Shown here piece after piece: positions 23,379 through 39,860 of a DNA stretch of 64,000 nucleotides. The notes beneath the pieces were generated by a model. That model was not told the origin of the DNA, did not search any database, and saw only the letters and a list, made by a program, of their open reading frames with translations. The first letter of the stretch is position 1. Each line of letters opens with the position of its first letter. Position numbers and translations under genes: made by a program. This stretch comes from a bacterium (GTDB taxonomy: Bacteria; Hydrothermota; Tepidihabitantia; SM23-42; JAOAFX01), in NCBI GenBank assembly GCA_036382775.1, contig DASVHD010000047.1:1-64000 (forward strand). Reading direction: 5' to 3'.

Positions 23379-23395
23379 GACTGGTTTTAGTACCC

Positions 23396-23423: not shown

Positions 23424-23562
23424 ATATAATAATAACAAAGACTTAAATCTATATTGAGCAATAAAACAATTTTATTTGAGAAAGAAAGGGAGGTTGGAGC
23501 TGCAGGCAGCAGCGTAATATTTCATTTGCCTAACGCGCAAGAGAGTCGACAAGGAGGTAATG

Positions 23563-27306: not shown

Positions 27307-27329
27307 CCAGTTAAAATAAAGGAGGAGGC

Positions 27330-28273: not shown

Positions 28274-28301
28274 GGTAATCATAATGTCTATTATCAGACG
28301 T
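28274..28301 (+). other. dif-like attachment site at left end (attL candidate)
   Basis: GGTAATCATAA, TGTCTA, TTATCAGACGT reads as an 11-6-11 Xer site. The E. coli dif site is GGTGCGCATAA, TGTATA, TTATGTTAAAT. The match covers 8 of 11, 5 of 6 and 6 of 11 positions, and the inner CATAA...TTATC near-palindrome is kept. The identity shared with the right-hand repeat starts exactly at the first base of the 6-bp centre (28285). Assignment as an attachment site is inference. Confidence 0.5.
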
Positions 28302-28385
28302 TGGCAGTTGCCAATGGAATAGGCCCCCTTGCAGCCAAAACGGGTGTTTAAGGCGAGATTCCCCAAAAGGTGAGGGTTTATGTAG
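28285..28385 (+). repeat. Left flanking direct repeat of the element
   Basis: 101 bp, collinear with 39663-39763 without net gaps. The first 26 bp are identical and roughly 73 of 101 positions match overall, ending in TATGTAG in both. Inside, TTGGC-AGTT-GCCAA forms a small stem that stays pairable through G-T pairs in the right copy. No gene is seen in 28188-28593. Confidence 0.85.
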
Positions 28386-28459
28386 GCCATTAGAGAATAA
28401 ACCACTACAGGGTAGTGAATCACGAGAGCAGCCCTCAAAGTTAGTTGCTGCTCGAAAGC

Positions 28460-28500
28460 AAAAAAGCCGATCATTAACTGAGGAATGGTCGGCTTTTTTA
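28460..28500 (+). terminator. Strong terminator inside the left end
   Basis: AAAAAAGCCGATCATT and AATGGTCGGCTTTTTT form a 16-bp stem with an 8-nt loop, T-rich on both strands. It lies 75 bp after the repeat block. A hairpin terminator also follows the right repeat at a similar distance (32 bp). Confidence 0.85.
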
Positions 28501-28593
28501 TTTGGTAAACTCCAAAAACCGCCATGCTATGATATTGCCAGCTTGATTGAAATGCGTCCTGGTGAAAATGGTGATGGGAGTTTTTAAAAAAAC

Positions 28594-29148
28594 ATGGGAA
28601 AGATAATATTGGACCTATGCGGCGGTACCGGAGCCTGGTCAAAACCTTATTTAGAGGCCGGCTATGATGTGCAAAATATTACATTGCCGGATTATGATGT
28701 CAGAACTTATAAAGTCCCAGAGAATGTCTACGGAATACTCGCAGGTCCCCCCTGCACGATATTTTCTAAAGCCCGGCCAATGATCTCACGAGACAGAAAT
28801 TTTGCCGGCGCAATGACAATAGTTGAGGCCTGCCTGAAGATAATCTGGGCAGCTCGCATTTCTGGAAGTTTGCAATTTTGGGCCCTGGAGAATCCGGCGA
28901 CCGGTTATTCACGGCAATTCTTAGGTCACCCGTGTTTTGTTTTTCAGCCGGTTGAGTTCGGGGATCCATGGACGAAGATGACGGCACTCTGGGGATATTT
29001 TCATCGACCGCGGAAAATTCACCCGGTCAAAAAAATCCGAAGGATCGGCAGTGGATATCCGCAAAAAGTCAATCAGTTTAAAGATTCAACCAGGCGTTCG
29101 ATTACGCCGGCGAATTTCGCAAAAGCATTTTTTAAGGCGAACCCATAA
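28594..29148 (+). CDS. Small C5-cytosine DNA methyltransferase-like protein
   Basis: A 184-residue protein with the C5-methyltransferase core motifs. Motif I is ILDLCGGTGAWSKPYLEAGY, motif IV is AGPPCTIFS with the catalytic cysteine, and motif VI is the variant ENP rather than ENV. It is less than half the length of restriction-type enzymes and lacks an obvious target-recognition domain, as in several phage-encoded short versions. It is the first gene of the element and could protect the element DNA. GGGAG lies 14 nt upstream of the ATG. Activity is likely but not proven. Confidence 0.75.
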   Translation: MGKIILDLCGGTGAWSKPYLEAGYDVQNITLPDYDVRTYKVPENVYGILAGPPCTIFSKARPMISRDRNFAGAMTIVEACLKIIWAARISGSLQFWALENPATGYSRQFLGHPCFVFQPVEFGDPWTKMTALWGYFHRPRKIHPVKKIRRIGSGYPQKVNQFKDSTRRSITPANFAKAFFKANP

Positions 29149-29160
29149 AAGGAGGTAATC

Positions 29161-29304
29161 ATGGTTAGAACAATGCGTACCGATGGTCATATCGGCAGCC
29201 GCATAAAGCGGAAGTACGGAAAGATCGGAGCTCCGAGATCTGCCAAGCGCAGACGCTGGCTCAAAAAAATCAGGCGTCATCACAGACGCCACAGACGGAG
29301 ATAA
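29161..29304 (+). CDS. Very basic 47-residue protein, possible DNA-condensing peptide
   Basis: A short frame with an excellent AAAGGAGGTAATC ribosome site, starting MVRTMRTDGHIGSRIKRK and ending IRRHHRRHRRR. About half of the residues are Arg, Lys or His. It starts 12 bp after the methyltransferase and ends 2 bp before the next gene. Small Arg-rich peptides in viruses often bind packaged nucleic acid, so a virion DNA-binding role is possible; this is inference from composition only. Confidence 0.65.
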   Translation: MVRTMRTDGHIGSRIKRKYGKIGAPRSAKRRRWLKKIRRHHRRHRRR

Positions 29305-29306
29305 TC

Positions 29307-29495
29307 GTGGACCCCGGGAAAGAAGATTGCCCTTGCTGTCCTCTTTGTTTTGCTAATCCCGGGCCTGAGGGTATCAGTCTGCGCTGCGAGGGGAATAAAT
29401 GCGCCTGGTGGGTTAAATCATTTGAGGCGTGCGCACTGAAAAGCATAGCGGTAACTCTATACAATATTCTGTGTCTCAAAAGTGAAAAAAAATAG
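29307..29495 (+). CDS. Small zinc-ribbon protein of the element
   Basis: 62 residues from GTG 29307. CPCCPLC near the start and RCEGNKCAWW in the middle form two cysteine pairs of a zinc ribbon, followed by a hydrophobic C-terminal helix. The gene overlaps the next by 14 bp. The GTG has only a poor ribosome site, but coupling to the gene just upstream would explain that. Function unknown. Confidence 0.5.
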   Translation: MDPGKEDCPCCPLCFANPGPEGISLRCEGNKCAWWVKSFEACALKSIAVTLYNILCLKSEKK

Positions 29496-29718
29496 CGAGA
29501 TCTCCATTATTCCGATTCCAAATAGCCGGCAGCAATGTCAAGAGATCTTCCTGGTAAAGGGACGAAGGGCGGAGCGTTGCCTGAATCGAGCGGTCTACCG
29601 GATCCAATGGTCCTCGGGCGGCGGTAAAGCAAGATCGATTAGGCTGGTATGCCATAAGCATATCGATATTTACCGCTTCCTGAGGTCCTATCTACGGCCT
29701 AATACTGTATTAACTTGA
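29482..29718 (+). CDS. Hypothetical small protein of the element
   Basis: 78 residues from GTG 29482. Three cysteines and a histidine pair (QQCQEIF, AERCLNRAVYRIQW, LVCHKHID) suggest metal binding of the kind seen in small phage proteins where C...C and CxKH hold zinc. No family is recognised. It lies between the zinc-ribbon gene and rep. Confidence 0.5.
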   Translation: MKKNSEISIIPIPNSRQQCQEIFLVKGRRAERCLNRAVYRIQWSSGGGKARSIRLVCHKHIDIYRFLRSYLRPNTVLT

Positions 29719-29754
29719 ACTACGGAACAAGACTTACAATGGAAGAAAAAACTA

Positions 29755-30720
29755 ATGGAATTACAGACTAAAATTGATTACTCCAAAGTCTCGGATCTAG
29801 TCAAAAGTTACCAGGTGAAGAGTGCTCGGGAGCGGGAAGCATGTCCGAATACCAGCCGGACCATCTATACCAGGACCGATTGCAGCTGTGGGCATGCCTT
29901 TGTTAGGATCAATTCCGTCAGCTGCAAGAAAGAGATCTGTCCGGTATGTGGTCAAAAGTACAGCGCGTTACATAATCAAAGGATGGCGCGCTGGCTGCCT
30001 AAGATCCTCTGGATGCTTGACCAGGGTTATTATATCGGTTATCTGGTCGTTACGCTCCCCCCTGAGTACTGGGTCCTCGATAAAGTTTTCCTGAGAGCGT
30101 TTAGACGCTATGTAGTGCGTAAACTCAAGCGCTATGGTATCAAGTACGGTAAGGTGCGCTTCCACTGGGCCGGCGACAAGGGCGGTAAGTACTTCCCCCA
30201 TCTCAATATCCTGATCGCTACCGATGGCTACCTGGATTGGATCGAGGACAAAAAAGACCCGGTCACCGATAAGGTCATTAAAAAAGGGTTCAAAAGTGAA
30301 TTTGCCGAATGGTTAAAATATCCCGGGACTCCCGTAGTGCATTACAAATATAAAAAAGACATCGGATGGGTCATGCATAAGGTTGAATACGTTACGCGGC
30401 CGACATTGAACTTGATCAATGACGATTTGTTCAGTGATCACCATAAAAAGCAAATATGGAATGACGTTGTAAAAGGGTTTATGAACGATGTGGAGATCGG
30501 CAAGCCGCAGAAAATTGATAAGGATGTCGACTACTGGATCCAAAAAGGCTTAACAAGCATGGGTGATCAGAATTTCAAGCTTTTCAGCCTTACCCTTAAT
30601 CGCTGTCCACACTGTCATAAGCCATTAAAATGGCACTACTGCAAGGGAGAACACGAGGCCCTGGAAGGATCTATGTGGAGTAATGACCTTAATAACGAGT
30701 ATACCGAGTTGATATTTTAA
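29755..30720 (+). CDS. Rolling-circle-type replication initiator (Rep)
   Basis: A 321-residue protein. The N-terminus has a zinc-binding region (CSCGHAF, then CKKEICPVCGQKY), common in phage and transposon Rep proteins. VVTLPPEYW and KVRFHWAGDKGGKYFPHLNIL follow; PHLN would be the metal-binding HUH-type motif with the second histidine replaced by asparagine. HKVEYVTRP near residue 227 carries the likely catalytic tyrosine. A second zinc pair, CPHCHKPLKWHYCKGEH, ends the protein. Such enzymes nick one strand at the origin and stay attached through tyrosine. It is the largest gene of the element. The exact Rep family is uncertain. Confidence 0.72.
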   Translation: MELQTKIDYSKVSDLVKSYQVKSAREREACPNTSRTIYTRTDCSCGHAFVRINSVSCKKEICPVCGQKYSALHNQRMARWLPKILWMLDQGYYIGYLVVTLPPEYWVLDKVFLRAFRRYVVRKLKRYGIKYGKVRFHWAGDKGGKYFPHLNILIATDGYLDWIEDKKDPVTDKVIKKGFKSEFAEWLKYPGTPVVHYKYKKDIGWVMHKVEYVTRPTLNLINDDLFSDHHKKQIWNDVVKGFMNDVEIGKPQKIDKDVDYWIQKGLTSMGDQNFKLFSLTLNRCPHCHKPLKWHYCKGEHEALEGSMWSNDLNNEYTELIF

Positions 30721-30734
30721 ATTGGAGGCAAAAC

Positions 30735-31064
30735 ATGAATATAACAGTAGAACAGGCAATCAATATCGTAACTGTCAACAGCCGGTCGGCAGTCATCCGT
30801 GAACTTGGTCAGATCAGGACTCACGCGGATATTATCGAGGACGAACTCAGGGACAAAAATCTGATCAATCTCACGGACCAGCAGCGCGACGAAAAATATC
30901 GGCTGTTGATCAAAGCCCTGTCCAAGATCTTTGCAACGTGCGATCATATCAAGCAGGACTGCCGCGCCTTGTACGAAATCCTGGAGAAGGCCTTCCCTGA
31001 TGTCGCGCTGAATGGCGGAGTGTTGGATATCAAAGAGCCGGAGGCTGATCGTGGCGGTAATTGA
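30735..31064 (+). CDS. Hypothetical helical protein of the element
   Basis: A 109-residue, mostly helical, acidic protein (DIIEDELRDKNLINLTDQQRD, LIKALSKIFATCDHIKQ). TTGGAGG precedes the ATG and the gene follows rep by 14 bp. I do not recognise it. Its position after rep suggests a replication accessory role, which is speculative. Confidence 0.6.
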   Translation: MNITVEQAINIVTVNSRSAVIRELGQIRTHADIIEDELRDKNLINLTDQQRDEKYRLLIKALSKIFATCDHIKQDCRALYEILEKAFPDVALNGGVLDIKEPEADRGGN

Positions 31065-31407
31065 AAGAATCAAACCGCAGGTCTCCCCTGCTATTGAAGT
31101 CGATAGAGTCGACGAGGAATACCAAAGCAAGCAGCTCAAGGCTGGAATTTTGAAAACCTTGCGATGGTTAGTCAGGGAATCACGATCGACCATGCTGATC
31201 GATACGAAGGTCAAAAGTAATTCAGTCGATGCTAAAGACCTTTTTGTAATTGTGATCTACCCTCTTGATAAGTCACTGCTCGATATCTTTTGTAAGCTGA
31301 CCGGATCATTCTTAACTATGGCCCTTGGGATCTATGACAAGCGGATCCCCGCGCCCTGGGACGCTCAGCCGAAGCTGTCATCGACCATCATTAAACCTGG
31401 AGGATAA
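31051..31407 (+). CDS. Hypothetical protein of the element
   Basis: The GTG at 31051 is chosen because CGGAGG lies 6 nt upstream; an earlier ATG at 31012 has no such site. It gives a 118-residue protein overlapping the previous gene by 14 bp. Alternating beta strands and helices (TMLIDTKVKSNS, DLFVIVIYPLDKSLLDIFC) suggest a small alpha-beta domain. No family is recognised. Confidence 0.55.
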   Translation: MAVIERIKPQVSPAIEVDRVDEEYQSKQLKAGILKTLRWLVRESRSTMLIDTKVKSNSVDAKDLFVIVIYPLDKSLLDIFCKLTGSFLTMALGIYDKRIPAPWDAQPKLSSTIIKPGG

Positions 31408-31608
31408 ATGACCACACTTTATAAGTGCGTTCATGCTGATCGCTGTACAGATCCGTACTGCATTCATCAGCGTTATCACACGGAAAGAGACGACTGCCAA
31501 CTGAACCGCGCGTGTGATTACTCTAAGCATGTAGTATGCAGGGTCGCGCGCAGCAACATCGAAAACCTTAAGCCGCCGGCAGGGAAGCTCCGCATATGTC
31601 CCGCGTGA
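31408..31608 (+). CDS. Small cysteine-rich protein of the element
   Basis: 66 residues starting directly after the previous stop, with TGGAGG before the ATG. Cysteines in CVHADRCTDPYCIHQRYH and CQLNRACDYSKHVVC can form one or two small zinc knots. Function unknown; nucleic-acid binding is a possibility. Confidence 0.55.
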   Translation: MTTLYKCVHADRCTDPYCIHQRYHTERDDCQLNRACDYSKHVVCRVARSNIENLKPPAGKLRICPA

Positions 31609-31805
31609 TGGTGCATGTGTTAAGGGATCATTACGAAAATCTGTGGCGCTTGATTACGCGCTATGAGATCCTGCTGCGGCACAAAGGTTATTCGCGGTCC
31701 GATCTGGATGAGCAGCGGCTGCGCGTCTTCGAATCGAAGCCCTGCAGAATAGATTTTGTAAAGGCAAAGCCGAGCCTGAATCGGCACAGCAAAAAAGCGA
31801 GGTAA
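31596..31805 (+). CDS. Hypothetical basic protein of the element
   Basis: 69 residues, overlapping the previous gene by 13 bp. A basic, probably helical protein (HVLRDHYENLWRLITRYEILL, SDLDEQRLRVFESK). A weak GGGAAGCTCCGCAT site precedes the ATG. No family is recognised. Confidence 0.5.
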   Translation: MSRVMVHVLRDHYENLWRLITRYEILLRHKGYSRSDLDEQRLRVFESKPCRIDFVKAKPSLNRHSKKAR

Positions 31806-31809
31806 TAAT

Positions 31810-32058
31810 ATGCCAAAAATGCTATCAATCGCAAAGGTCAAGGAAAACGTCCTCAAGCTCATACAGGTCTACGGCGATTTTGTCAAGGCCATGGTGAGGA
31901 TGAACCCGGGGATCGAGCTGAAATTCGACGTCTACTTCTCCAGCAAACCGGAAGGCGATCATCTGTTTACGTTCGACATTCCCTTTGTCAAGGCGTACCT
32001 GATCATCAAGGTTTCGAGCTCGCACGGCATCCTGAAGTGCGTTCACATCGACCTGTAA
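31810..32058 (+). CDS. Hypothetical protein of the element
   Basis: 82 residues: a helical N-terminus (IAKVKENVLKLIQVYGDF) followed by beta strands (ELKFDVYFSS, FDIPFVKAYLIIKVSS). The start is 4 bp after the previous stop. No family is recognised. Compact order and spacing support it as a gene. Confidence 0.5.
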   Translation: MPKMLSIAKVKENVLKLIQVYGDFVKAMVRMNPGIELKFDVYFSSKPEGDHLFTFDIPFVKAYLIIKVSSSHGILKCVHIDL

Positions 32059-32075
32059 CCGACGCGGGAACGGGC

Positions 32076-32309
32076 GTGAAGAAAAGCGGCGGCGGCAGTG
32101 GACCTTACCAGGGACTTACTGAAAGTCAACGTAAGATCATTGCCGCCGTCGAGGATTCACTTACATGCCCTGGATTCCGCAAAAAATTCTTTTCGCTATT
32201 CGGCCATTATTTTAGGTGCTGGCATTGTTTTAAGATAATGTGCCGATTCATAGGAGGCATGATATGGTTAACAATCAAGAAGTGGCTGACGAAAAATCCG
32301 GAGCTGTAA
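32076..32309 (+). CDS. Hypothetical protein of the element with hydrophobic segment
   Basis: The GTG at 32076 is taken as the start, giving 77 residues: KKSGGGSGPYQGLTESQRKI, then a Cys/aromatic-rich hydrophobic stretch (LFGHYFRCWHCFKIMC) and WLTIKKWLTKNPEL. A frame opening at 32037 is an alternative. It overlaps the next gene by 46 bp, which weakens the case. Confidence 0.4.
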   Translation: MKKSGGGSGPYQGLTESQRKIIAAVEDSLTCPGFRKKFFSLFGHYFRCWHCFKIMCRFIGGMIWLTIKKWLTKNPEL

Positions 32310-32794
32310 TACAAACGTCGCAGCCTGGGGATCCGGCGGGGAAAGCCGAACCGGTCGAACCGGCAACATCGGCGGTGATTTCCAAGACGTTAAATGAAGC
32401 GGCGGACCAGGTGTCGTCTGAGCCGGCATTGTTAGCTGAGCCAGGGGGGTCAGCCGCGGAAAAGCCGCTGGTGCCGGTACCTGAACAACCGCCGGCAAAG
32501 AAACCGCCAGCTGTGTCTGAGGATCTGATAAAGGATTATACCGAAGCGCTGGTGGCAACACTGGACGTCGTTAACGGCCAGGTATGCTCGGTGATCGCGC
32601 GCCAAATGGACCACGATTTTTCATTCAAACAGTCCCAGCATGACAAGCTGGTGATGGTCTGGACACCGGTCGTGCGGATGTTCTATGACAAGATTCCGGT
32701 CCTGGTGGTCGCCGGATTTACGACCGTTACGGTCCTGGGCGGAAATTTCATCGCGGCGCGTCAGCTGCGCGATGAGAAGGATCAGAAAAAATGA
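32264..32794 (+). CDS. Pro/Ala-rich protein with C-terminal membrane helix
   Basis: The ATG at 32264 follows AGGAGG by 6 nt and gives 176 residues. The first half is a low-complexity Pro/Ala/Glu linker (PVPEQPPAKKPPAVSEDL). The second half has a helical region and a membrane helix IPVLVVAGFTTVTVLGGNF near the end with a charged tail (RDEKDQKK). It could be a membrane-anchored virion or assembly protein. Not recognised by family. Confidence 0.6.
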   Translation: MVNNQEVADEKSGAVIQTSQPGDPAGKAEPVEPATSAVISKTLNEAADQVSSEPALLAEPGGSAAEKPLVPVPEQPPAKKPPAVSEDLIKDYTEALVATLDVVNGQVCSVIARQMDHDFSFKQSQHDKLVMVWTPVVRMFYDKIPVLVVAGFTTVTVLGGNFIAARQLRDEKDQKK

Positions 32795-33036
32795 CCGAGA
32801 ACCGCCAGGCTATGATATTGCCGGCATCGTCAAGATCGATCCTGATCGAACTGGTGAGCCGATTTTTTCAATCCAGGCATAAAATGGCAGAGCTGCTCAA
32901 AAGTCTATATACTAAATCGATTCGGATTCCTCGAGTAGAGCATATATACTTTCCGGCGGCGATCGCCGAAGTATATATACAAGCCGGCAGGATCCCGAGT
33001 ATATATACTTCAGGATCTGCGTCGACTGAGACGTAA
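32791..33036 (+). CDS. Hypothetical protein overlapping the palindrome cluster
   Basis: 81 residues starting as ATGA on the previous stop. The first 40 residues look like a normal helical protein (SILIELVSRFFQSRHKMAELL). The second half is encoded by four copies of the AGTATATATACT palindrome that fall in different reading frames. This end may therefore be a DNA-level control region that is merely translated. Confidence 0.4.
   Translation: MTENRQAMILPASSRSILIELVSRFFQSRHKMAELLKSLYTKSIRIPRVEHIYFPAAIAEVYIQAGRIPSIYTSGSASTET
32902..33009 (+). promoter_or_regulatory. Four copies of the palindrome AGTATATATACT
   Basis: Copies lie at 32902-32913 (one mismatch), 32939-32950 (one mismatch), 32970-32981 (one mismatch) and 32998-33009 (perfect). 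Start-to-start spacing is 37, 31 and 28 bp. A second palindrome, CGGCGATCGCCG (32957-32968), lies between copies two and three. Two more copies occur at 38585-38620. They are candidate binding sites for an element-encoded regulator or for the replication initiator. Confidence 0.65.
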
Positions 33037-33076
33037 ATTATATATGATTAAGCTTTTTCGAGTGCGAGGAGAGACC

Positions 33077-33292
33077 ATGAAGAAAAAAACAAAAACGAAC
33101 AAGAATGACCAGGTAGATGATGGGATGGTCCTGGAGAATCCGCAGCATAAGGACCATTATGCTTGCTGGTGCGGTCGCTGGGTGTCGCTGTACATATTTC
33201 ACGCTCATAAATGGTTAAAGGTCGGCGTGTTTTGTAATCGCTGCGGCGCGGTCGCGCTCTATAAAAAATACAATAAGAAGGACAATTCCTGA
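33077..33292 (+). CDS. Small zinc-ribbon protein of the element
   Basis: The ATG at 33077 follows GAGGAGAGACC. 71 residues: a Lys-rich start (KKKTKTNKNDQ), then CWCGRWVSLYIFHAHKW and CNRCGAVALYKKY, a four-cysteine zinc ribbon. It overlaps the next start by one base. Function unknown. Confidence 0.6.
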   Translation: MKKKTKTNKNDQVDDGMVLENPQHKDHYACWCGRWVSLYIFHAHKWLKVGVFCNRCGAVALYKKYNKKDNS

Positions 33293-33552
33293 TGAAGTAC
33301 TCTATTTTTAGCATGCCCTATTTTTTCTATCGCGGGCTCTGCGCGATCGGTGCATCGATCCGGCGTTACTATTTTAACTATCGTACTGAGCGTTACTTTG
33401 CGCGCTGCCGGGAGGACATCACCAGGCTCCACTGGTACATGATCAAATGTCATTACTCGCGCCAGGACCGCCGGCGAATCGCCAGGCAGCTGATGAAATA
33501 TACCATGTCATTGAGCGGCTTCGATTTCAAGGAAGGCAAGGTGCAACCATGA
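33292..33552 (+). CDS. Basic, aromatic-rich hypothetical protein of the element
   Basis: 86 residues rich in Arg, Tyr and Phe (MPYFFYRGLCAIGASIRRYY, HYSRQDRRRIARQLMKY). The start overlaps the previous stop and the end overlaps the ATPase start as ATGA, so the three genes are translationally coupled. No family is recognised. Confidence 0.55.
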   Translation: MKYSIFSMPYFFYRGLCAIGASIRRYYFNYRTERYFARCREDITRLHWYMIKCHYSRQDRRRIARQLMKYTMSLSGFDFKEGKVQP

Positions 33553-34094
33553 CAAGACCTCGTATGTTCTTTTTGATCATCGGCACGACGCACACCGGAA
33601 AGACGTACTTTATCCGGGACCTGATAAAACTATCGAAGCAGAAGGTCCTGGTCTATGACGTGAACCGCGAAGAAAAGTACGCTCGCCTGCCGGTAGTCAA
33701 CGTGCAAAAACTGGCATCGTTTCATAAGGGCAAATATCGCGTAATTCAGCGGCAGCCGGACCAGGTAATCGAATACATAATTAACGACTATCGTAACGGA
33801 CTGCTTATCCTGGACGATGTGGACCGCTATTTATCGGTTACTTCGGTCGCATGGAATGACCTGATTATCGGTCATCGACACATGGGTCTGGACCTGATCG
33901 CGGTATTTCACTCATTAAACCGTACCTTGCCGATATTTTACGAGAACTGTACCGATATCATTCTCTTCAAAACTCAGGAACAGCCTGACAAGAGCATAAA
34001 TAAGCTGCCTAAATCGGACGATGTACTAAGGGCGTTTTACCAGGTTGAAAGCAATAAGGATCCGCATTACAAAGTACGGATCCGCTGCCGATAG
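33549..34094 (+). CDS. Short FtsK/HerA- or Zot-type ATPase, probable genome-packaging ATPase
   Basis: A 181-residue P-loop protein. Walker A is IIGTTHTGKTYFIRDL, Walker B is GLLILDDVDRYL, and GHRHMGLDLIAVFHSLNRT follows, corresponding to the sensor region of the HerA-FtsK/A32 and Zot groups. There is no membrane helix, whereas inovirus Zot proteins usually have one. The small size matches packaging ATPases of tailless membrane-containing phages such as PM2 and PRD1. The ATG at 33549 overlaps the previous stop. A terminator follows the gene, closing the first transcription unit. Confidence 0.75.
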   Translation: MTRPRMFFLIIGTTHTGKTYFIRDLIKLSKQKVLVYDVNREEKYARLPVVNVQKLASFHKGKYRVIQRQPDQVIEYIINDYRNGLLILDDVDRYLSVTSVAWNDLIIGHRHMGLDLIAVFHSLNRTLPIFYENCTDIILFKTQEQPDKSINKLPKSDDVLRAFYQVESNKDPHYKVRIRCR

Positions 34095-34105
34095 TCAAGC
34101 GGTGC

Positions 34106-34131
34106 AAAAGGGATAATTATCCCTTATTTTT
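34106..34131 (+). terminator. Terminator after the ATPase gene
   Basis: AAGGGATAATTATCCCTT is a perfect palindrome followed by ATTTTTA. A TATAAT box at 34167-34172 downstream may start the late unit, but no good -35 box is visible because the upstream DNA is C-rich. Confidence 0.8.
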
Positions 34132-34248
34132 ACCTGGTCTACTCCACCCCCCTCCCCCCTTTTTGTTATAATGTACCATAATGGATATTTATACTTTGAG
34201 ATATCCTGCGGGCCTGGCATGGGGTCAGGCCCTAAAGAGAGGTGCTTT

Positions 34249-34362
34249 ATGAAGGGATGGTTTGGGGATTTTTTGCTGACTGCTTTCGCGGTGCTTGTGG
34301 CATTGATACTCTATCACATATCCGCGCCGATAGTCAGTGGCTTGTTCAAGCCAAAAAAGTAA
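34249..34362 (+). CDS. 37-residue single-helix membrane peptide
   Basis: The ATG at 34249 follows AGAGAGG by 6 nt. The peptide is MKGWFGDF, a hydrophobic helix (LLTAFAVLVALILYHI) and a basic end (GLFKPKK). It is the first gene after the terminator and lies 12 bp before the first capsid candidate. Small single-helix proteins of this kind occur in the inner membrane of tailless phages and as coat subunits of filamentous phages. Confidence 0.6.
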   Translation: MKGWFGDFLLTAFAVLVALILYHISAPIVSGLFKPKK

Positions 34363-34374
34363 AGGGGGTTACCT

Positions 34375-35067
34375 ATGCCAAGCAATCTATTATCTGAACT
34401 CGAAAGAATCGAAGAGCTGGCTCGGGGTGAATCCTTCGCGTACGATGATCCTGCTGATACGGTGCTTTCCCTTGCTGGCCCACTGGCCGATATCGAGATC
34501 GATCAGCAATTCGGGTTCGATACTCAATCGAGTAAATCGCCGTCCGGTACGACCTATGGCCTACGGATCGTCAATGGGGTGGCGGGGGCAAGGACCGTCA
34601 AACTCTTTGGTTTCGAAGGCTTTAAATACACTGATGCCAACGTTACAATCACGGCCCAGGGCGGTTATGGAACGTATGAAAAGTTCTGTTACTCGAACTG
34701 GTTCAATCCGGCCGAGATTGTATCGGTAAGGATCACCACCACATCAGCTCAGATCGACCAGATGTCGCTGAAATGGGTGCGGGACAGTGTCTTCGGTAAG
34801 CTCGATTCCAATGTTCTTTCGATGTCTTCGTATCGGACTGAGTCGGACTATCAGACTGGAGTCATCACGATTCCGTTCCGGTTTCTGCTGGCGTTCGATG
34901 CGTATATTGAGACGACGATCCTGGTCTCGACGACCGTTGACTTGCTATTCTTCATGGGTGCGCGTCTCGATCCGGCGAAAAAGATCGAAGCCATGAGATC
35001 GGCGCCGCAGATAATGTCGAAGTCCGGCCGAAGGCCAGTGCTAAGTAAATCTGGTGGCGCAGTTTAA
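34375..35067 (+). CDS. Beta-rich protein of 230 residues, capsid candidate 1
   Basis: AAAGGGGGTTACCT precedes the ATG. The body is predominantly beta (VKLFGFEGFKYTDANVTITA, SVRITTTSAQIDQMSLKWV, QTGVITIPFRFLLAF), with no signal peptide or membrane helix. The C-terminus is basic (MSKSGRRPVLSKSGG). The gene lies directly after the ATPase and small membrane peptide, where major capsid genes of double- or single-jelly-roll phages are often found. I do not recognise the family; the capsid assignment rests on size, composition and place. Confidence 0.5.
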   Translation: MPSNLLSELERIEELARGESFAYDDPADTVLSLAGPLADIEIDQQFGFDTQSSKSPSGTTYGLRIVNGVAGARTVKLFGFEGFKYTDANVTITAQGGYGTYEKFCYSNWFNPAEIVSVRITTTSAQIDQMSLKWVRDSVFGKLDSNVLSMSSYRTESDYQTGVITIPFRFLLAFDAYIETTILVSTTVDLLFFMGARLDPAKKIEAMRSAPQIMSKSGRRPVLSKSGGAV

Positions 35068-35080
35068 AAGGCGGTGATCC

Positions 35081-35521
35081 ATGAGAGCAGTTGATAGGAT
35101 CATCGAAAAACTACCAGGCTATGCTGAGATGCGCGGTCAGGTATCCGACGAGGCGATCATTGCTCACGCGGCTGCCGTCTATCCTACTACGACCGCAATT
35201 GCCGTCGCTGAAGCCGAGGTCGAATCCGAAGGATTCGGCTTGTTCGGGATCGGCGATATTTTCAATGTGGCAAAAAACGCTATTAAAGGCGTGGTTGGAG
35301 CTGGGAAGGGTGTGATCAAGGCGTTTTCAAAAACGCATGACGTGGGGCTAAAAATCACGCCTAAAGAACCGCAGCCTACCGCTGCGCAGGTCGCGGCAGC
35401 GGTCGCAAAAGAAAAGGATAAGTCTAAGGCTAAACCTTCCTGGATCCTTCCGGCTATTATCGCGGTTGTCGTTGCGGTAGTGATCGTCCTGTTTGTTTCG
35501 TTCACCGGCAAAGCGAAGTGA
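35081..35521 (+). CDS. Gly/Ala-rich membrane protein of the element
   Basis: 146 residues, preceded by AAGGCGGTGATCC. The middle has FGLFGIGDIFNVAKNAIKG, an amphipathic Gly-rich segment. The C-terminus has the strong membrane helix WILPAIIAVVVAVVIVLFV with a short basic end. This resembles minor membrane proteins in virions with an internal lipid layer. Not recognised by family. Confidence 0.6.
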   Translation: MRAVDRIIEKLPGYAEMRGQVSDEAIIAHAAAVYPTTTAIAVAEAEVESEGFGLFGIGDIFNVAKNAIKGVVGAGKGVIKAFSKTHDVGLKITPKEPQPTAAQVAAAVAKEKDKSKAKPSWILPAIIAVVVAVVIVLFVSFTGKAK

Positions 35522-35526
35522 TGTAA

Positions 35527-35766
35527 ATGGTGTACCAGCATACGCTTACGCTCAAAGGTCCGGCGGACGTAATCGTTTCCTGCCCTGATAATGGCGTGGT
35601 ATGGTGTAAAGGCAATAACGGATTGCAGTACTCAATACCGCATCGCTGTCATCAGGGCAGGACGCTTCTTAAGCTCCCGCGACCGCCCAAAATCCTTAAG
35701 ATCATCGCTACAAAAAGATTCACGGTGGAAGTCAAACCTTTCAATGCCCGTCGCCGTCATGCTTAG
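35527..35766 (+). CDS. Small beta-rich hypothetical protein of the element
   Basis: 79 residues with beta-type sequence (HTLTLKGPADVIVSC, TKRFTVEVKPFNARRRHA). The ribosome site is poor and coupling to the gene 5 bp upstream is likely. Its end overlaps the next gene by 8 bp. No family is recognised. Confidence 0.5.
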   Translation: MVYQHTLTLKGPADVIVSCPDNGVVWCKGNNGLQYSIPHRCHQGRTLLKLPRPPKILKIIATKRFTVEVKPFNARRRHA

Positions 35767-36082
35767 ATATGTCATTGAGCCATCGGACCGGATCGTCAAG
35801 ATATTCCCTAAGCGTGAGCTCGTGGTCATCGATCCATCGTTTTATACGATTTACAATTTTAACATCCGCGTATTTATCCTGCTGCACGAGTTGGCTCATT
35901 TAGATAGGTCTAACGAATATGAGGCCGACTATCAAGCGTTTCGTATGTACCGCGATGCCGGCTATCCTTTGCGCGACTGCATTTTTGCCCTTACCCGCAT
36001 ATTGCCCCTGCCTAAAAATTATGAGCGTGTCTCTCGCCTATTCCGAAGGATTATCGATGAATATCCTGAGCTTCTTAATTGA
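35759..36082 (+). CDS. HExxH metallopeptidase-like protein of the element
   Basis: The ATG at 35759 overlaps the previous stop; an in-frame ATG at 35744 is an alternative. The 107-residue protein contains LLHELAHLDRSNEYEADYQAF. HELAH is a zinc-binding HExxH, and EYEAD downstream supplies the usual third glutamate of a gluzincin. The region C-terminal to it is short. It may be a small wall- or protein-cleaving enzyme used at entry, exit or maturation. The gene overlaps the transglycosylase by 26 bp. Confidence 0.65.
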   Translation: MLRYVIEPSDRIVKIFPKRELVVIDPSFYTIYNFNIRVFILLHELAHLDRSNEYEADYQAFRMYRDAGYPLRDCIFALTRILPLPKNYERVSRLFRRIIDEYPELLN

Positions 36083-36512
36083 TCGGAATTGGTATATGCC
36101 GCTGATCAAGCCCAAAGATTCCCTGCTGCCCTATTATGAATACATTGCCGAGCAGCTTGGCATGCCGATCGAGCTGGTGATCGCTCATGCACAATTAGAA
36201 AGCCAGCAGTATTATCTTGCCAGGGGTAAAGCAGGGGAATACGGGCTGTGGCAGTTTCTACCATCGACCTGGAAAGGGCTGATGGGCAGCGCGAACTGGA
36301 AAAGCATCGATAACCAATGCGCGGCCTATATCATACATACGCGCAATGTTATCAATCGCTATGGACTCAATTTACACAACTCCGCGCATGTTACAGTTTA
36401 CTTATGGGTGTGGAATGCCGGCGGCGGAAATTACGAGAAGAATTTTATGCCTGTATCAACCCGTGAATATATCCGCGTGATTAAACAATATCAAGCGCAA
36501 GTCGAAGTGTAG
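36057..36512 (+). CDS. Lytic transglycosylase (SLT type)
   Basis: The ATG at 36057 has AAGGA 7 nt upstream. The 151-residue protein has the SLT core: VIAHAQLESQQYY with the catalytic glutamate, then GEYGLWQFLPSTWKGLMG and VTVYLWVWNAGGGNYEK. Such enzymes cut the glycan strands of peptidoglycan, here likely for virion entry or release. No signal peptide is seen, which fits a virion-borne enzyme. Confidence 0.85.
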   Translation: MNILSFLIDRNWYMPLIKPKDSLLPYYEYIAEQLGMPIELVIAHAQLESQQYYLARGKAGEYGLWQFLPSTWKGLMGSANWKSIDNQCAAYIIHTRNVINRYGLNLHNSAHVTVYLWVWNAGGGNYEKNFMPVSTREYIRVIKQYQAQVEV

Positions 36513-36522
36513 GAGATATGAA

Positions 36523-36891
36523 ATGAACAAGGACGATGTAAAAAAGCTCGCGTATTCAATATGGGATTCTAAACTCCCTGTAAATTATAAGATGGAATTA
36601 TTTGGCGGCCTTAAAAAACTATATGATACATGGGATCAGTATTCGGATCAGGGGCGTCGAGAAGTCGTTCAGTTGGTCAAAGATCGTTTGGAATGGATCA
36701 AAACGCATGATCCGCAAGTTATTATTACCCAATTAATTTTTGATCTAATCGACATTATTTTAAAACCAATATCATTTGGGCTGTGGCTTTTGAGACACAT
36801 AAAAGAAGTCGTATTATTTGTAGTGGTGGCAGCCTTGATCGCCGGCGGTGCTTACTACGGGATCAAGCTTCGAAAGGTAGTCAAAAAATGA
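36523..36891 (+). CDS. Membrane-anchored hypothetical protein of the element
   Basis: 122 residues with AGGAGAT before the ATG. A helical soluble part (REVVQLVKDRLEWIKTHDPQ) is followed by hydrophobic segments, including LLRHIKEVVLFVVVAALIAG, and a basic end (KLRKVVKK). Function unknown. Its stop overlaps the next start as ATGA. Confidence 0.6.
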   Translation: MNKDDVKKLAYSIWDSKLPVNYKMELFGGLKKLYDTWDQYSDQGRREVVQLVKDRLEWIKTHDPQVIITQLIFDLIDIILKPISFGLWLLRHIKEVVLFVVVAALIAGGAYYGIKLRKVVKK

Positions 36892-37424
36892 TAAGAGCAT
36901 TCCGAAGGACGCAGACGCAAGATCGAGACGAAAAAACAGATCCGCCGATAGTGCCTTCGGAGAGTCTTCAGTCGGCGGAAAAACCCATCGAAAACATCCC
37001 GGGTCCGCCTGATCCAAAGCCTGAACCTGAACCTGAAAAATCACCGGCAAAGAAAGAATCTAAACTTGATTATTTGCTGATCGTTGAAAAAATATCCGAC
37101 AACCAGGTCAAAATCACATTCGCCGGCCGTCCGTCCGTGATTACGCCGGTTGAAAAACACTGGGACATAATCCGAGACTACTATAAATATAAAATTTTGC
37201 CAACCGATCCCGAGCCGACTGAGTACTACAAACTTAAAGACTCTCCTGGAAGGCCGCCGAAGGAATGGTGGAATAGCAAGGTGCGCTGTCTGCGCCGTGA
37301 ACATCCTGGTTATTCGGGCAAGCGGATCAGTAAGGTCGCCGGTGAAATTTGGGAAGGATACTCGGTCAACACAAAACGCAGGTTGATATCAAGAGTGGAA
37401 CGTAAGAAAAGGAGTAAACGATGA
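36888..37424 (+). CDS. Hypothetical protein with Pro/Glu linker and basic C-terminus
   Basis: 178 residues from the ATG overlapping the previous stop. Residues 1-60 are a disordered Pro/Glu linker (PPDPKPEPEPEKSPAKKE). A short beta region (YLLIVEKISDNQVKITFAG) and a Cys-containing basic end (RCLRREHPGYSGKRISKVAG) follow. The C-terminal pattern resembles helix-turn-helix-like DNA-binding segments, but I cannot place it. Confidence 0.5.
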   Translation: MIRAFRRTQTQDRDEKTDPPIVPSESLQSAEKPIENIPGPPDPKPEPEPEKSPAKKESKLDYLLIVEKISDNQVKITFAGRPSVITPVEKHWDIIRDYYKYKILPTDPEPTEYYKLKDSPGRPPKEWWNSKVRCLRREHPGYSGKRISKVAGEIWEGYSVNTKRRLISRVERKKRSKR

Positions 37425-38110
37425 TCTATATTATCAAACGCAGTTTCATGGACAATGCATTGACGACGGATATGCTGCCGAGGGGGTTTCGTTATTTCAG
37501 TTTTTTGACTGACGGCGGTATCAATCCTGAGTGTAATTTCGCCAATGAAAATTTGACGCTCGAATTGATTGCGGTCGGTAACGCAGCGGGACCAGTATAT
37601 CCGATTAATCAGGAAGTACTTAATCTCACCGCGGGCGTTCTGTGCGATATGCTTCGCATAACGAACCTACAAATGGGCATGAGTCCACTGACGCTTGAAA
37701 ATGGATACGGGAATATCATCGTGGTCTGCTCGGATGAGCCGCTTGGGGGTAATTTTATCACAAAGAGCAATGCGCATATTGAAGAAGCACTGACAATTCC
37801 GGCAGCCACTACGAAAACCTATTGGCTCGGCAGGGACCGGGTAGACGCTGCTGACATTTTACTGCTGCCTTATGTTCCGCCGCGTTATAACTATGCGATG
37901 GTATTGTTGCAATACGGCGGCGGAACGATAGCGAGTCTTCAATGGGCACCTTTCGCTAAAACGTTAAATGTGTTCGGTTCAACAGTGAATGCCGGCGATA
38001 TTACAAGCGTCAAAACGTCGGATCGCGTAAGGATAACAATACAAAACACTCATGTAGCGGATCCAGCGAATGCGGTCGTCTATGCAGTCTTTTGCGAGGG
38101 CGGCGCGTAA
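37421..38110 (+). CDS. Beta-rich protein of 229 residues, capsid candidate 2
   Basis: AAAGGAGTAAACG precedes the ATG; an in-frame ATG at 37448 is an alternative that may match mature proteins better. The body is beta-rich with many Asn/Thr (CNFANENLTLELIAVGNAAG, NVFGSTVNAGDITSVKTSDR, RITIQNTHVADPANAVVYAV), no membrane helix and no signal. Size and composition match capsid candidate 1, so the two could be paired capsid proteins, or one capsid and one spike/vertex protein. No family is recognised. Confidence 0.5.
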   Translation: MIYIIKRSFMDNALTTDMLPRGFRYFSFLTDGGINPECNFANENLTLELIAVGNAAGPVYPINQEVLNLTAGVLCDMLRITNLQMGMSPLTLENGYGNIIVVCSDEPLGGNFITKSNAHIEEALTIPAATTKTYWLGRDRVDAADILLLPYVPPRYNYAMVLLQYGGGTIASLQWAPFAKTLNVFGSTVNAGDITSVKTSDRVRITIQNTHVADPANAVVYAVFCEGGA

Positions 38111-38301
38111 TGAATGTAAATAAATTGCTAAACATACTAATAATTATAATCTGTTTAGTATCAATGCTCGAAGGCCTGGCATTGATTAAAGGCGTGGATG
38201 GTGCGGCACTATCCGCCATGATCGGTTTATTTTGTGCTATCGCGGGGATCATTGGGACGGTGCTGAGATACAAGATCAAGCATCATCACGATCAGAAATA
38301 G
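38110..38301 (+). CDS. Two-helix membrane protein, holin-like size
   Basis: The ATG at 38110 overlaps the previous stop by one base. 63 residues with two membrane helices (LLNILIIIICLVSMLEGLA, MIGLFCAIAGIIGTVL) and a charged tail KIKHHHDQK. This is the size and layout of a class II holin, but small virion membrane proteins look alike. Confidence 0.6.
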   Translation: MNVNKLLNILIIIICLVSMLEGLALIKGVDGAALSAMIGLFCAIAGIIGTVLRYKIKHHHDQK

Positions 38302-38309
38302 GAGCAACC

Positions 38310-38567
38310 ATGAAAAAATGGCTTTTGATACTTATCGGCATTTTGATCGGCATGCTGGCGGAAGTAATTCTGGCGGTACTGGTAATTACTGTTTTTAATA
38401 AAAATCTGAGCGTGGAACTTAACAAAAAAAGCAGCTGGTACGGTATCCTAAAACCGATTAACGTCTTTCCGATCAGAATCCCGCTGCGGAAGATCTTTGC
38501 TTCGTTCCTGGGTCTAAAAGGTCCCGCCGGTATTCAAGAGAATCCGCTGGAGCTTAAGCTCAAATAG
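38310..38567 (+). CDS. Single-helix membrane protein of the element
   Basis: AGGAGCAACC precedes the ATG at 38310. 85 residues: KKW, then an N-terminal membrane helix (LILIGILIGMLAEVILAVLV), followed by a basic soluble part (NVFPIRIPLRKIFASFLGLK). It is the last gene before the second pair of palindromes. Not recognised. Confidence 0.6.
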   Translation: MKKWLLILIGILIGMLAEVILAVLVITVFNKNLSVELNKKSSWYGILKPINVFPIRIPLRKIFASFLGLKGPAGIQENPLELKLK

Positions 38568-38584
38568 ATCTTCCTGCAGGAAAA

Positions 38585-38620
38585 AGTATATATACTTCAC
38601 CATGCAAAAGTATATATATT
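38585..38620 (+). promoter_or_regulatory. Two further copies of AGTATATATACT
   Basis: 38585-38596 is perfect and 38609-38620 is AGTATATATATT (one change). They sit 24 bp apart, upstream of the promoter at 38644-38671, where a bound protein could control the lipoprotein and regulator genes. Confidence 0.65.
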
Positions 38621-38643
38621 TCGAAGATATCCAATTTTACCCC

Positions 38644-38671
38644 TTGACAATTCCGTTTTTGTTCTTAAACT
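38644..38671 (+). promoter_or_regulatory. Promoter of the element lipoprotein gene
   Basis: TTGACA (38644-38649), 16-bp spacer, TAAACT (38666-38671). AAGGGAGG lies before the ATG at 38714. Confidence 0.6.
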
Positions 38672-38713
38672 GTACACGTGAGCAACAAAGAATAAAATAA
38701 CAAGGGAGGATGT

Positions 38714-39148
38714 ATGAAATATATAATACCATTTGTCTTGCTCTTTTCTTTGTCATGTAAAGCCAATTTTACAATGGACACGTATGTCGATGAATTTATA
38801 AATATTGATGCGAAGGGTTACTATTTGAAAATTCTAACGCCGGAATCGGAACAGCAGAGCAAAGATTATTTTTTTGGTAAAATAGTTGTGAGCCCTGGAT
38901 GCAGTTTTGTGAGGGGTTCCGAGGAACGCGTAATCAATTGTTATTTGTTGGACGCTGATAATTATGAAGAATGGAAAAGCGGAAAGGATCCGTCGACAAG
39001 CATATTCAAAAAAATTGAAAAATCAGACATGACGATACCGATTACTGAATTGAATTGGGATGAGAATAAAAAATACTATTTTATAATTAGCAACAGGTTT
39101 TCGGAAATGAATAAATCGGTTCATTTGTATTTGATAAGGATCTATTAA
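38714..39148 (+). CDS. Element-encoded lipoprotein of unknown function
   Basis: A 144-residue protein with a short signal peptide ending in a lipobox-like FSLSC near residue 15, then a mostly beta mature part (KIVVSPGCSFVRG, KYYFIISNRFSEM). It is expressed from its own promoter behind two AGTATATATACT sites. A lipoprotein added to the host surface by an integrated element could block infection by related phages; this is a guess from lifestyle. It is lower in GC than its neighbours by eye. Confidence 0.65.
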   Translation: MKYIIPFVLLFSLSCKANFTMDTYVDEFINIDAKGYYLKILTPESEQQSKDYFFGKIVVSPGCSFVRGSEERVINCYLLDADNYEEWKSGKDPSTSIFKKIEKSDMTIPITELNWDENKKYYFIISNRFSEMNKSVHLYLIRIY

Positions 39149-39156
39149 ATGTCGAA

Positions 39157-39256
39157 AGCAACTCATAATTACCCAGGGGAAGCCAGGATACCAATCTTGG
39201 CAGGGCAGGTCGCTCCTGCCGTTATGAGTTGCTCACCTCCCCTGGGGAAAGGTGAG
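39157..39256 (+). other. Interleaved inverted repeats (pseudoknot-like or origin-like)
   Basis: AGCAACTCATAA (39157-39168) pairs perfectly with TTATGAGTTGCT (39222-39233). CCCAGGGG (39172-39179) can pair with CCCCTGGG (39239-39246), giving an interleaved A-B-A'-B' order. Between them GGCAGG/CCTGCC forms a hairpin. CTCACCT/AGGTGAG with CCCC/GGGG (39232-39256) is a competing hairpin. It could be a structured RNA, a terminator or a single-strand replication origin. Confidence 0.5.
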
Positions 39257-39303
39257 CTGATATGGAATATTTTAAACAAGGCGAAAAGTGGAGGCGGCCA
39301 CAA

Positions 39304-39627
39304 ATGAGCCGGGTCACAAGATATTTTAATATCCGCCTTAGAGATCTAATGGTCGAAAAAGGATTCAAGGCTGGGCAGCTGGCGATGATTACAAATGTTG
39401 CGCCGGCTTCGGTATCGCTTTGGATCAATGGCATTGAAATGCCGCCGGACGATATCCAGTGTCTGATCGCTATCTGGCTCGGTGTGTGCCGAGATGAGAT
39501 CTGGCAATTTAAAAAAGAATGTTTTAACGAAATTATTGAGCTTTCGAAACTTCACAAAGAACAGGTGCGGCTGGAGAAAAAGCTGGCCGGAAAATTACAG
39601 CTGCAAAATTCAAACGAGGATTTTTAG
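39304..39627 (+). CDS. Xre-type helix-turn-helix regulator of the element
   Basis: The ATG at 39304 has GGAGG 9 nt upstream; an in-frame ATG at 39262 with AAAGGTGA is an alternative. The 107-residue protein has an HTH_3-like fold: YFNIRLRDLMVEKGFKAGQL, then NVAPASVSLWINGIEMPPDD and IAIWLGVCRDEIWQF. A helical, coiled-coil-like tail follows. It is the last gene of the element and a candidate ligand of the AGTATATATACT sites. Confidence 0.72.
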   Translation: MSRVTRYFNIRLRDLMVEKGFKAGQLAMITNVAPASVSLWINGIEMPPDDIQCLIAIWLGVCRDEIWQFKKECFNEIIELSKLHKEQVRLEKKLAGKLQLQNSNEDF

Positions 39628-39651
39628 TGAACTCCTTTAATAAACTATTTC

Positions 39652-39679
39652 AATGACCTAACTGTCTATTATCAGACGT
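39652..39679 (+). other. Right-end recombination site (attR candidate)
   Basis: AATGACCTAAC, TGTCTA, TTATCAGACGT. The centre and right arm are identical to the left site, but the left arm differs completely. That is the pattern expected if Xer strand exchange joined a host left arm (28274-28284) and an element left arm at the two ends. Confidence 0.45.
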
Positions 39680-39763
39680 TGGCAGTTGTCGGCGAAATAG
39701 GCCATATTATAGCGGAAACGGGCTTTTGGGGCGTGATCTCCCCAAGACGGATAATCTATGTAG
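39663..39763 (+). repeat. Right flanking direct repeat of the element
   Basis: Counterpart of 28285-28385, same length and orientation. In a Xer model this copy would be the original chromosomal flank and the left copy would be element-borne. An inner palindrome, TTGGGG-CGTGATCT-CCCCAA, is present only here. Confidence 0.85.
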
Positions 39764-39794
39764 TCTAAAAGCTAATTCGTAGCATTTAATACAT

Positions 39795-39836
39795 AAAATC
39801 CCACCTGATCATTTATCTTGGTCTGATGGGATTTTC
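39795..39836. terminator. Bidirectional terminator beyond the right repeat
   Basis: AAAATCCCA and TGGGATTTT frame an inner CCTGATC...GTCTGAT stem, with T-rich sequence on either side. It lies 25 bp past the stop of the minus-strand zinc-ribbon gene and can also end plus-strand transcripts. Confidence 0.7.
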
Positions 39837-39860
39837 TATTTTATAGAGCTGTTTTTGATT

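Follow-up and report, generated by a model that had tools for sequence, protein, structure and literature searches.

An integrated 11.4-kb element in a Hydrothermota genome is very likely a temperate tailless phage

What kind of mobile element carries a packaging-type ATPase, a replication protein, and a set of small membrane proteins within 11.4 kb of DNA that has no recognizable tail gene? The question is raised by a 64,000-nucleotide stretch of a Hydrothermota genome, hereafter the window, which comprises bases 1 to 64,000 of the 91.7-kb contig DASVHD010000047.1 (assembly GCA_036382775.1; 3.06 Mb, 95.6% complete, and 2.3% contaminated). A mobile element is integrated at positions 28285-39688 of the window, bounded by exact 26-bp direct repeats. 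In our judgment this element is very likely a temperate phage without a tail, integrated as a provirus; its lineage is probably undescribed, and its virion probably contains a membrane. A preliminary description, made from the sequence of the window, had proposed an integrated virus-like element of this size with direct repeats, and the exact repeats, 11,378 bp apart, agree with it.

Between the repeats lie 30 unbroken plus-strand frames, with 26 of the 29 intervals between them overlapping or shorter than 15 bp. Because overlaps reach 70 nt, some of the frames may not be genes. The longest open stretch on the minus strand is 179 codons. About 29 packed plus-strand genes had been described; the dense plus-strand packing held, with 30 frames chosen here. 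All 30 were scanned against Pfam, and PHROGs comparisons were run on 19 of them. No tail, portal, terminase, integrase, relaxase, or conjugation family passed its Pfam gathering score in any of the 30 frames, consistent with the reported absence of the first four, and SLT was the sole Pfam family to pass its own gathering score.

The 26-bp sequence TGTCTATTATCAGACGTTGGCAGTTG is identical at 28285-28310 (left attachment core) and 39663-39688 (right attachment core), both read on the plus strand; these identical cores bracket an inserted unit of 11,378 bp. Such repeats were not expected by chance (0 matches in 100 shuffles), and the last 14 bases of the core occur at just these two sites in the 3.06-Mb genome. 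Each core stands at the head of a structured plus-strand sequence, which ends in a terminator-like hairpin on the left (28285-28505) and, in a homologous form, in a hairpin followed by Ts on the right (39663-39845). Past the core, the two ends agree downstream only (54 of 90 positions, compared with 26 of 90 in the upstream control), with an alignment score reached by none of 2,000 shuffles; the overall 78% match between the ends counts the core in. The RNA folds gave z scores of -3.1 for the left end (1 of 200 shuffles as good) and -2.5 for the right end (2 of 200), with the hairpins contributing much of both scores, and each copy finishes in a hairpin and Ts. We infer that the core is an attachment site heading a structured, terminator-ended sequence, and that the element brings its own version of that sequence. 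Because of this arrangement, an integration event probably exchanges the 3' body, by analogy with phages that exchange 3' bodies at tRNA genes.

The nature of the target was pursued in several ways. No tRNA genes were found in the window, and neither end copy matched Rfam at the gathering score. Insertion into a known RNA gene was rejected, since nothing in Rfam matched the right end even at E 5 and the left-end matches lay far under their cut-offs. A search for the target site in 26 further genomes from the order returned matches at E 0.05 or worse only. The Pfam scan of the 30 frames found no tyrosine recombinase within the element, and the four Phage_integrase matches in the host genome are all on other contigs. 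Temperate relatives of FLiP are integrated between 28-nt repeats and use dif and XerC/XerD, according to an excerpt of PMC9719478. A dif-type integration was considered by analogy and rejected, as the best 11-6-11 dyad matched at just 7 of 11 positions.

The strongest link to known viruses comes from the gene at 33549-34094 (plus strand), which encodes a predicted genome-packaging ATPase of 181 residues. Its best PHROG is phrog_2666 (E 3.2e-9, residues 5-147), and the matched span of 143 residues runs from the P-loop to past the acidic and arginine motifs. This family, which bears the PHROGs name 'terminase large subunit', was also the best family for the ATPases of PM2, P23-77, PRD1, SNJ1, and IN93 (5 of 5, E 1.7e-25 to 1.1e-64). 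In pairwise Smith-Waterman comparisons, PM2 P9 came closest among the known ATPases compared (z 11.5 to 14.3), and P23-77 and IN93 gave z 5.6 to 8.3. A profile built from this ATPase and that of a second element, described below, was aligned by hhalign to P23-77 (probability 96, E 1.2e-9), PM2 (probability 93, E 4.2e-7), and PRD1 (probability 63), each figure being a single comparison. The top PDB sequence was the packaging NTPase B204 of STIV (E 0.0083). By these sequence comparisons, the protein belongs to the packaging family of PM2, PRD1, and P23-77, in line with the packaging-type ATPase originally described. The profile search that had been suggested thus returned a virus-type packaging family, with no conjugative family above its cut-off.

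Among 147 genomes of the phylum, one further relative of the element was found, in a genome (G033) that is 86% complete and 7% contaminated. This second element, hereafter JZ-1, lies on contig JAUQPS010000014.1 of the metagenome-assembled genome JZ-1.bins.166 (locus L008/L017), from the same phylum and a different host family, and its GC content is 28.8%, compared with 47.0% for the element in the window. Its ATPase is 25% identical to that of the window and has phrog_2666 as its top family (E 1.3e-6). At 1.3 kb from the ATPase gene, on the opposite strand, JZ-1 encodes a 228-residue protein that is homologous to the product of 34375-35067 (22% identity, BLASTP E 8e-8, z 12.1, 0 of 200 shuffles). 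When 22 window proteins were compared with 13 proteins of the JZ-1 locus, the ATPase and this 230-residue protein alone stood above noise. Downstream, JZ-1 encodes membrane proteins, an HExxH protein that matches M78 (E 1.9e-7), and a protein resembling glucosaminidases (E 0.011, under cut-off), so that the two elements also share HExxH and lytic-type genes in tandem. Homology of the HExxH proteins was not retained: they reach z 4.5, yet the window HExxH protein reaches 4.5 with the JZ-1 ATPase as well, and therefore only the motif (LHELAHL in the window, LHELAHI in JZ-1) and the matching place are claimed. A resemblance between the protein encoded at 37421 and a JZ-1 protein of 333 residues (z 3.3) was within noise. 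JZ-1 differs from the window element in the opposite strands of its ATPase and capsid candidate genes, in a tyrosine recombinase on the other side of the locus, and in the glucosaminidase-like gene in place of SLT. It is cut by the contig end, and its sequenced part holds nothing like the Rep of the window element. Two clusters of TATTTAC/T repeats (L008:12710-12766 and 15199-15265; 6 and 7 copies with 10-nt spacing) flank the leftward ATPase genes of JZ-1 and are iteron- or operator-like.

In the window, three plus-strand genes come after that of the ATPase and encode a 37-residue membrane peptide with a single helix (34249-34362; 63 residues if the start is at 34171), a soluble 230-residue protein (34375-35067), and a membrane-anchored protein with a C-terminal helix (35081-35521; hydropathy 3.2 at residues 122-140). 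The order in PM2 is P9 ATPase, P7 (34 residues), P2 capsid, and P3, with the membrane peptide in the place of P7 and the membrane-anchored protein in that of P3. Because of this PM2-like order and of the homologue beside a homologous ATPase in JZ-1, the product of 34375-35067 is likely the major capsid protein. A second soluble protein, of 229 residues (37421-38110, plus strand), is a possible second capsid or vertex/spike protein.

Both of these proteins had been described as beta-rich, and fold prediction was the suggested check. For 34375-35067, an AlphaFold2 model from two sequences (mean predicted local distance difference test score, pLDDT, 45.9; predicted template modelling score 0.50) contains one beta-sandwich at residues 57-199; for 37421-38110, the model was unusable (pLDDT 31), and the description of that protein gained nothing from it. 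The sandwich was superimposed on a single barrel of the PRD1 coat protein (Z 6.4, root-mean-square deviation 3.2, 105 residues). Among the best 50 rows of the structural alignment, the entries of which are redundant, the PRD1/PR772 coat occurs in 6 (ranks 3-8) and PHM in 15; PHM is a cellular double-jelly-roll protein that has been compared with viral coats, as stated in an excerpt of PMC8812541. These results are no more than suggestive of a jelly roll in the modelled protein, and given its 230 residues we lean towards one barrel rather than two. A BFVD fold search was not used: its 15 matches below E 0.001 were to mixed viral proteins, with query TM-scores of at most 0.34 in the best 50 rows. 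Chou-Fasman strand counts were discarded as a sign of a capsid, as they did not separate capsid proteins from an ATPase.

At the sequence level, comparison of 34375-35067 with eleven coat and vertex proteins of PM2, FLiP, P23-77, IN93, SNJ1, STIV, and PRD1 gave a largest z of 2.5. The values included z 0.3 with PM2 P2 (hhalign probability 0.2) and -0.5 with the FLiP capsid; a twelfth protein, the PM2 spike P1, gave z 0.4, and no sequence similarity was seen to VP16, VP17, PB2, PB7, or IN93 ORF13/14. Capsid families missing from the VIA list carry no evidential weight.

The element carries a probable replication initiator, and genes of phage type stand at its two ends. The Rep gene (29755-30720, plus strand) encodes a 321-residue probable rolling-circle initiator with a Cys-rich N-terminus, H-L-N in the place of HUH, and a YVTRP tyrosine. 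An alignment with the pt38 Rep, from a Streptococcus plasmid, covers about 230 residues (z 14.8; tblastn E 0.03) and places a Cys stretch and the tyrosines (YVTRP here, YPTKP in pt38) opposite each other; by sequence, the two proteins are related. Small plasmids of the pt38 type replicate by rolling circle. The Rep originally proposed as HUH-type is a relative of a plasmid Rep with an aligned tyrosine, but its motif reads P-H-L-N. Weaker matches were to Zn_Tnp_IS91 (E 1.6e-4, under the gathering score) and Rep_1 (E 0.04). The SNJ1 RepA has a short Cys-rich stretch in common with Rep (z 4.3, within noise); no homology was found to PM2 P12 (z 0.4), and the FLiP Rep gave z -1.2. Among the 147 genomes of the phylum, Rep matched its own genome only, and plasmids yielded one weak tblastn match. 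The last gene (39262-39627, plus strand) encodes a phage-type helix-turn-helix repressor (phrog_3, transcriptional repressor, E 5.8e-8), which fits a temperate life; the protein also matches GP3_package, a phage packaging family, at E 0.012, under the Pfam cut-off. The first gene (28594-29148, plus strand) encodes a methyltransferase that is phage-type by its PHROG label (phrog_757, E 2e-26) and has matches in 32 phage records, the best with 41% identity in Mycobacterium phages.

Several observations weigh against the reading as a tailless provirus. For the ATPase, a Parcubacterial VirB4-like control also reaches phrog_2666 (E 2.1e-9), so that the E-value for this family is not specific taken alone, whereas length and rank are: the control match covers 56 residues only and lies far under the best family of that protein. 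Pairwise z was 0.2 with SNJ1, 2.2 to 2.6 with PRD1, and 3.9 to 4.9 with M13 protein I; the profile of both elements' ATPases matches only other P-loop proteins in PDB, a tree of eight ATPases gives no resolved placement, and the JZ-1 ATPase scores higher with the VirB4-like control (z 7.3 to 8.2) than with PM2 (4.8 to 5.4). For the capsid candidate, none of the capsid families and named coat proteins tried gave a match; its z with PRD1 P3 was -1.5, and its model is weak (pLDDT about 46). An arabinofuranosidase and a CUB domain head its structural alignment (ranks 1 and 2), unrelated sandwiches occur at similar Z, and by the tool's own statement a Z below 8 may mean a common arrangement only; Foldseek gave no PDB match at E 0.001, with PRD1 outside the best 50. 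The protein encoded at 37421-38110 has no family match and PDB matches at E 1.1 or worse only. Two weak matches recall tailed phages, one of the SLT protein to a 'lytic tail protein' PHROG (E 0.014) and one of a JZ-1 membrane protein to a tape-measure PHROG (E 2.9e-4), which we take for a helix effect. Rep has P-H-L-N where the pt38 Rep has P-H-I-H, and the attachment core is not convincingly dif-like.

Other explanations were weighed. The element could be an integrated rolling-circle plasmid or mobilizable element in which a HerA-type ATPase serves DNA transfer or partition and is not viral. The kinship of its Rep with that of a small plasmid is clear, the P-loop region is common to HerA and VirB4 ATPases, and the ATPase gives a weak match to TraD (11.7 bits, with the cut-off at 521). 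Against this, the 30 frames gave no match above cut-off to a relaxase, coupling-protein, or type IV secretion family, and the ATPase fits the virus packaging family across its 143 matched residues. The lytic enzyme, the phage-type repressor and methyltransferase, and the PM2-like order around the ATPase likewise argue for a virus, and we consider the plasmid explanation improbable. A little less probable still is a defective remnant, or a satellite using the shell of another virus, with the ATPase and the 230-residue protein serving otherwise: no known capsid family was recognized and only two members of the lineage were found, but the 30 packed frames are unbroken and the ATPase and 230-residue protein have been kept together across two host families at 22 to 25% identity.

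The rolling-circle-type Rep, the several small membrane proteins, the small size, and the z of M13 protein I with the ATPase could also point to a filamentous, inovirus-type provirus whose ATPase would be a relative of Zot or protein I. The ATPase differs from those of Inoviridae-type phages in having no hydropathy segment, and thus no membrane anchor, and no match at E 0.1 to phrog_1675 and phrog_197, the PHROGs of M13 protein I; conversely, the M13 protein I control had no phrog_2666 match at E 0.1. The inovirus coat protein is tiny, unlike the soluble 230-residue structural candidates of the element. A filamentous provirus is accordingly the least probable of these explanations, and we regard it as very improbable. 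From tailed phages (Caudoviricetes) the element differs, on a profile basis only, in having no HK97 capsid, portal, terminase, or tail gene above the Pfam cut-off in the 30 frames; a very diverged HK97 coat is possible.

If the element is a tailless provirus, which known group does it approach? PM2-, FLiP-, and P23-77-like viruses had been named. The ATPase family supports PM2 and P23-77, and the gene order supports PM2. Like PM2 (Corticoviridae, Vinavirales; 10 to 11 kb), the element has a Rep gene and then genes for an ATPase, a mini membrane peptide, a capsid protein (here a candidate), and a membrane protein, and PM2 P9, with which homology was found, is the closest known ATPase compared. 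It differs from PM2 in having no detectable similarity to the capsid P2 or the Rep P12, in a candidate of 230 residues versus 269, and in its SLT and HExxH genes, neither of which is annotated in PM2. With Matsushitaviridae and Simuloviridae (P23-77, IN93, and SNJ1, which have two single-jelly-roll capsid proteins) it shares a related packaging ATPase and two soluble proteins of about 230 residues, and P23-77 and IN93 have an annotated transglycosylase gene. An ATPase of the FtsK/HerA packaging type, as in Matsushitaviridae and Helvetiavirae (Singelaviria), is present, with SNJ1 just at the low pairwise value given above. Differences from these viruses are the undetected capsid similarity, the 2.4 kb that separates the two non-adjacent genes for proteins of about 230 residues, and a length of 11.4 kb versus 16.5 to 19.6 kb. 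The small size, Rep, lytic enzyme, and repeat-bounded integrated relatives recall FLiP (Finnlakeviridae), but the element has an ATPase, and its capsid and Rep are without similarity to those of FLiP. FLiP is a poor comparison because the published viruses of its group are described, in an excerpt of Yutin et al. (PMC5894146), as having an M13-like Rep and no packaging ATPase. The element would work much as PM2 or P23-77 does, yet it appears to fit none of the known families compared: its Rep is not that of PM2, capsid similarity was undetected, and the model does no more than suggest a fold.

The same excerpt names the packaging ATPase among the partners that stay most stably with the double-jelly-roll capsid protein. 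The International Committee on Taxonomy of Viruses (ICTV) split single- and double-jelly-roll viruses into two realms in 2025 on the ground that their coats arose separately (excerpt of PMC12714852), and one study placed the ATPases of the two groups together (excerpt of PMC8328091). Whether the coat is a single or a double jelly-roll thus decides the realm of the element. Tentatively, and with considerable doubt, the two elements may form a separate tailless lineage with a shell of one single-jelly-roll protein of about 230 residues and a PM2-like ATPase and gene order, standing between Singelaviria and Varidnaviria or representing an independent capture of a jelly roll. If true, the combination of a PM2-like packaging module and a short single-barrel coat would bear directly on the ICTV realm split. 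Tailless phages are thinly sampled, and two elements in different families of one phylum, with a coat candidate matching no capsid family tried, suggest that searches starting from known coats miss such lineages.

As a temperate tailless phage, the element might work as follows. The repressor would keep the provirus silent; on induction, a host tyrosine recombinase would recombine the two cores and release a circle, which Rep would nick, with rolling-circle replication next. The 230-residue protein would build a shell over an inner membrane in which the small membrane proteins sit, the ATPase would pump DNA in, and the transglycosylase and HExxH protein may breach the wall during entry or exit. 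The insertion and the family relationships of the ATPase, Rep, repressor, and SLT protein are evident from sequence, and all the functional steps are inferred.

Searches for further relatives gave few additional leads, and the proposal of a new lineage is consistent with a capsid candidate of no matched family and one relative in the collections searched. In a collection of viral contigs, no relative was found for 37421, 34375, the ATPase, Rep, the ATPase and capsid candidate of JZ-1, or alignments A1 and A2; these negatives are weak because short peptide patterns reach close relatives only. Searches of phages by tblastn likewise found none for both 230-residue proteins, the ATPase, Rep, and the two JZ-1 proteins, the ATPase giving at E 10 only matches of E 0.9 (a PMBT28 gene annotated as terminase) and E 5; plasmids searched with the ATPase yielded none. 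Alignment A3 matched at least 589 stretches of a genome contig collection, and the relatives among the matches listed were JZ-1 and a locus (L018) that was then dropped, its match being, by eye, a Parcubacterial VirB4-like frame with no other element genes seen. Among the 147 phylum genomes, the ATPase matched 2 (its own included), A2 matched 3 at E 0.01, and A1 matched 3. Among 390 relatives, A2 matched 3 and the ATPase 2, and A2 matched 2 of 389 relatives of G033. Two of these hits were judged chance: G028 (E 7.9e-4) lies opposite a longer frame that is glycosyltransferase-like by eye, and G099 covers model positions 10-69 only, inside a 600-residue frame. A literature search listed no publication on the element. 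Charybdis elements, which an excerpt of PMC12324425 describes as 4.6 kb long, without a replication protein, and with an archaeal host, were set aside.

The remaining genes are all on the plus strand. Three frames of unassigned function and no Pfam match (29161-29718; starts at 29161, 29307, and 29482) precede Rep, and ten frames with nothing above Pfam gathering scores (30735-33552; starts at 30735, 31012, 31408, 31596, 31810, 32037, 32240, 32791, 33044, and 33292) separate it from the ATPase. After the membrane-anchored protein come a small open frame that was included in the Pfam scan (35527-35766), the HExxH protein (LHELAHL; 35759-36082, start chosen at 35759), which by its motif is a possible metalloprotease, and the lytic transglycosylase (36057-36512, start chosen at 36057; PF01464 at 22.1 bits, cut-off 21.3, with a longer frame scored). 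Both had been predicted. A tblastn search of phages with the SLT protein gave one match, in Elizabethkingia phage EKP1 (E 1e-3). A two-helix membrane protein (36523-36891) and a protein that is basic and proline-rich by eye, with no family above cut-off (36888-37424), follow. Beyond the 229-residue protein are two small membrane proteins (38110-38567), of which the one at 38110-38301 resembles YesK (E 0.0014, under cut-off) and the other is at 38310-38567. Six proteins have hydropathy segments (32240, 34171/34249, 35081, 36523, 38110, and 38310), in line with the earlier count of at least six. The next gene, at 38714-39148, encodes a possible cargo protein with no family match and a signal-like N-terminus by eye, and a small open frame lies at 39149-39307.

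The gene at 38714-39148 has a lower GC content, is signal-peptide-like, and is set apart from the structural genes; it is possibly a lysogenic conversion gene, and a promoter-like site near it belongs to a class of matches at chance level. An AT-rich palindromic stretch at 38560-38620 separates the structural genes from the last genes and could be an origin or promoter region. An internal 77-nt repeat (28512-28588 and 32795-32871; 71%) encodes in both copies a similar peptide end, PPxYDIA..., and in the first copy the frame is open from at least 28402 and stops at 28585-28587.

Outside the element, two tandem, closely similar lipoprotein-like genes lie to the left of the insertion (26500-28133; blocks 79% and 87% identical), and a gene that is epimerase-like by eye lies to the right. 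Three large paralogous proteins at 18001-25878 are subtilisin-like by eye, two of them sharing a sorting-signal-like KLEKVVIVK tail, and a 1,079-residue protein at 375-3614 has 38 GGG/AGG/SGG repeats and by eye is adhesin-head-like.

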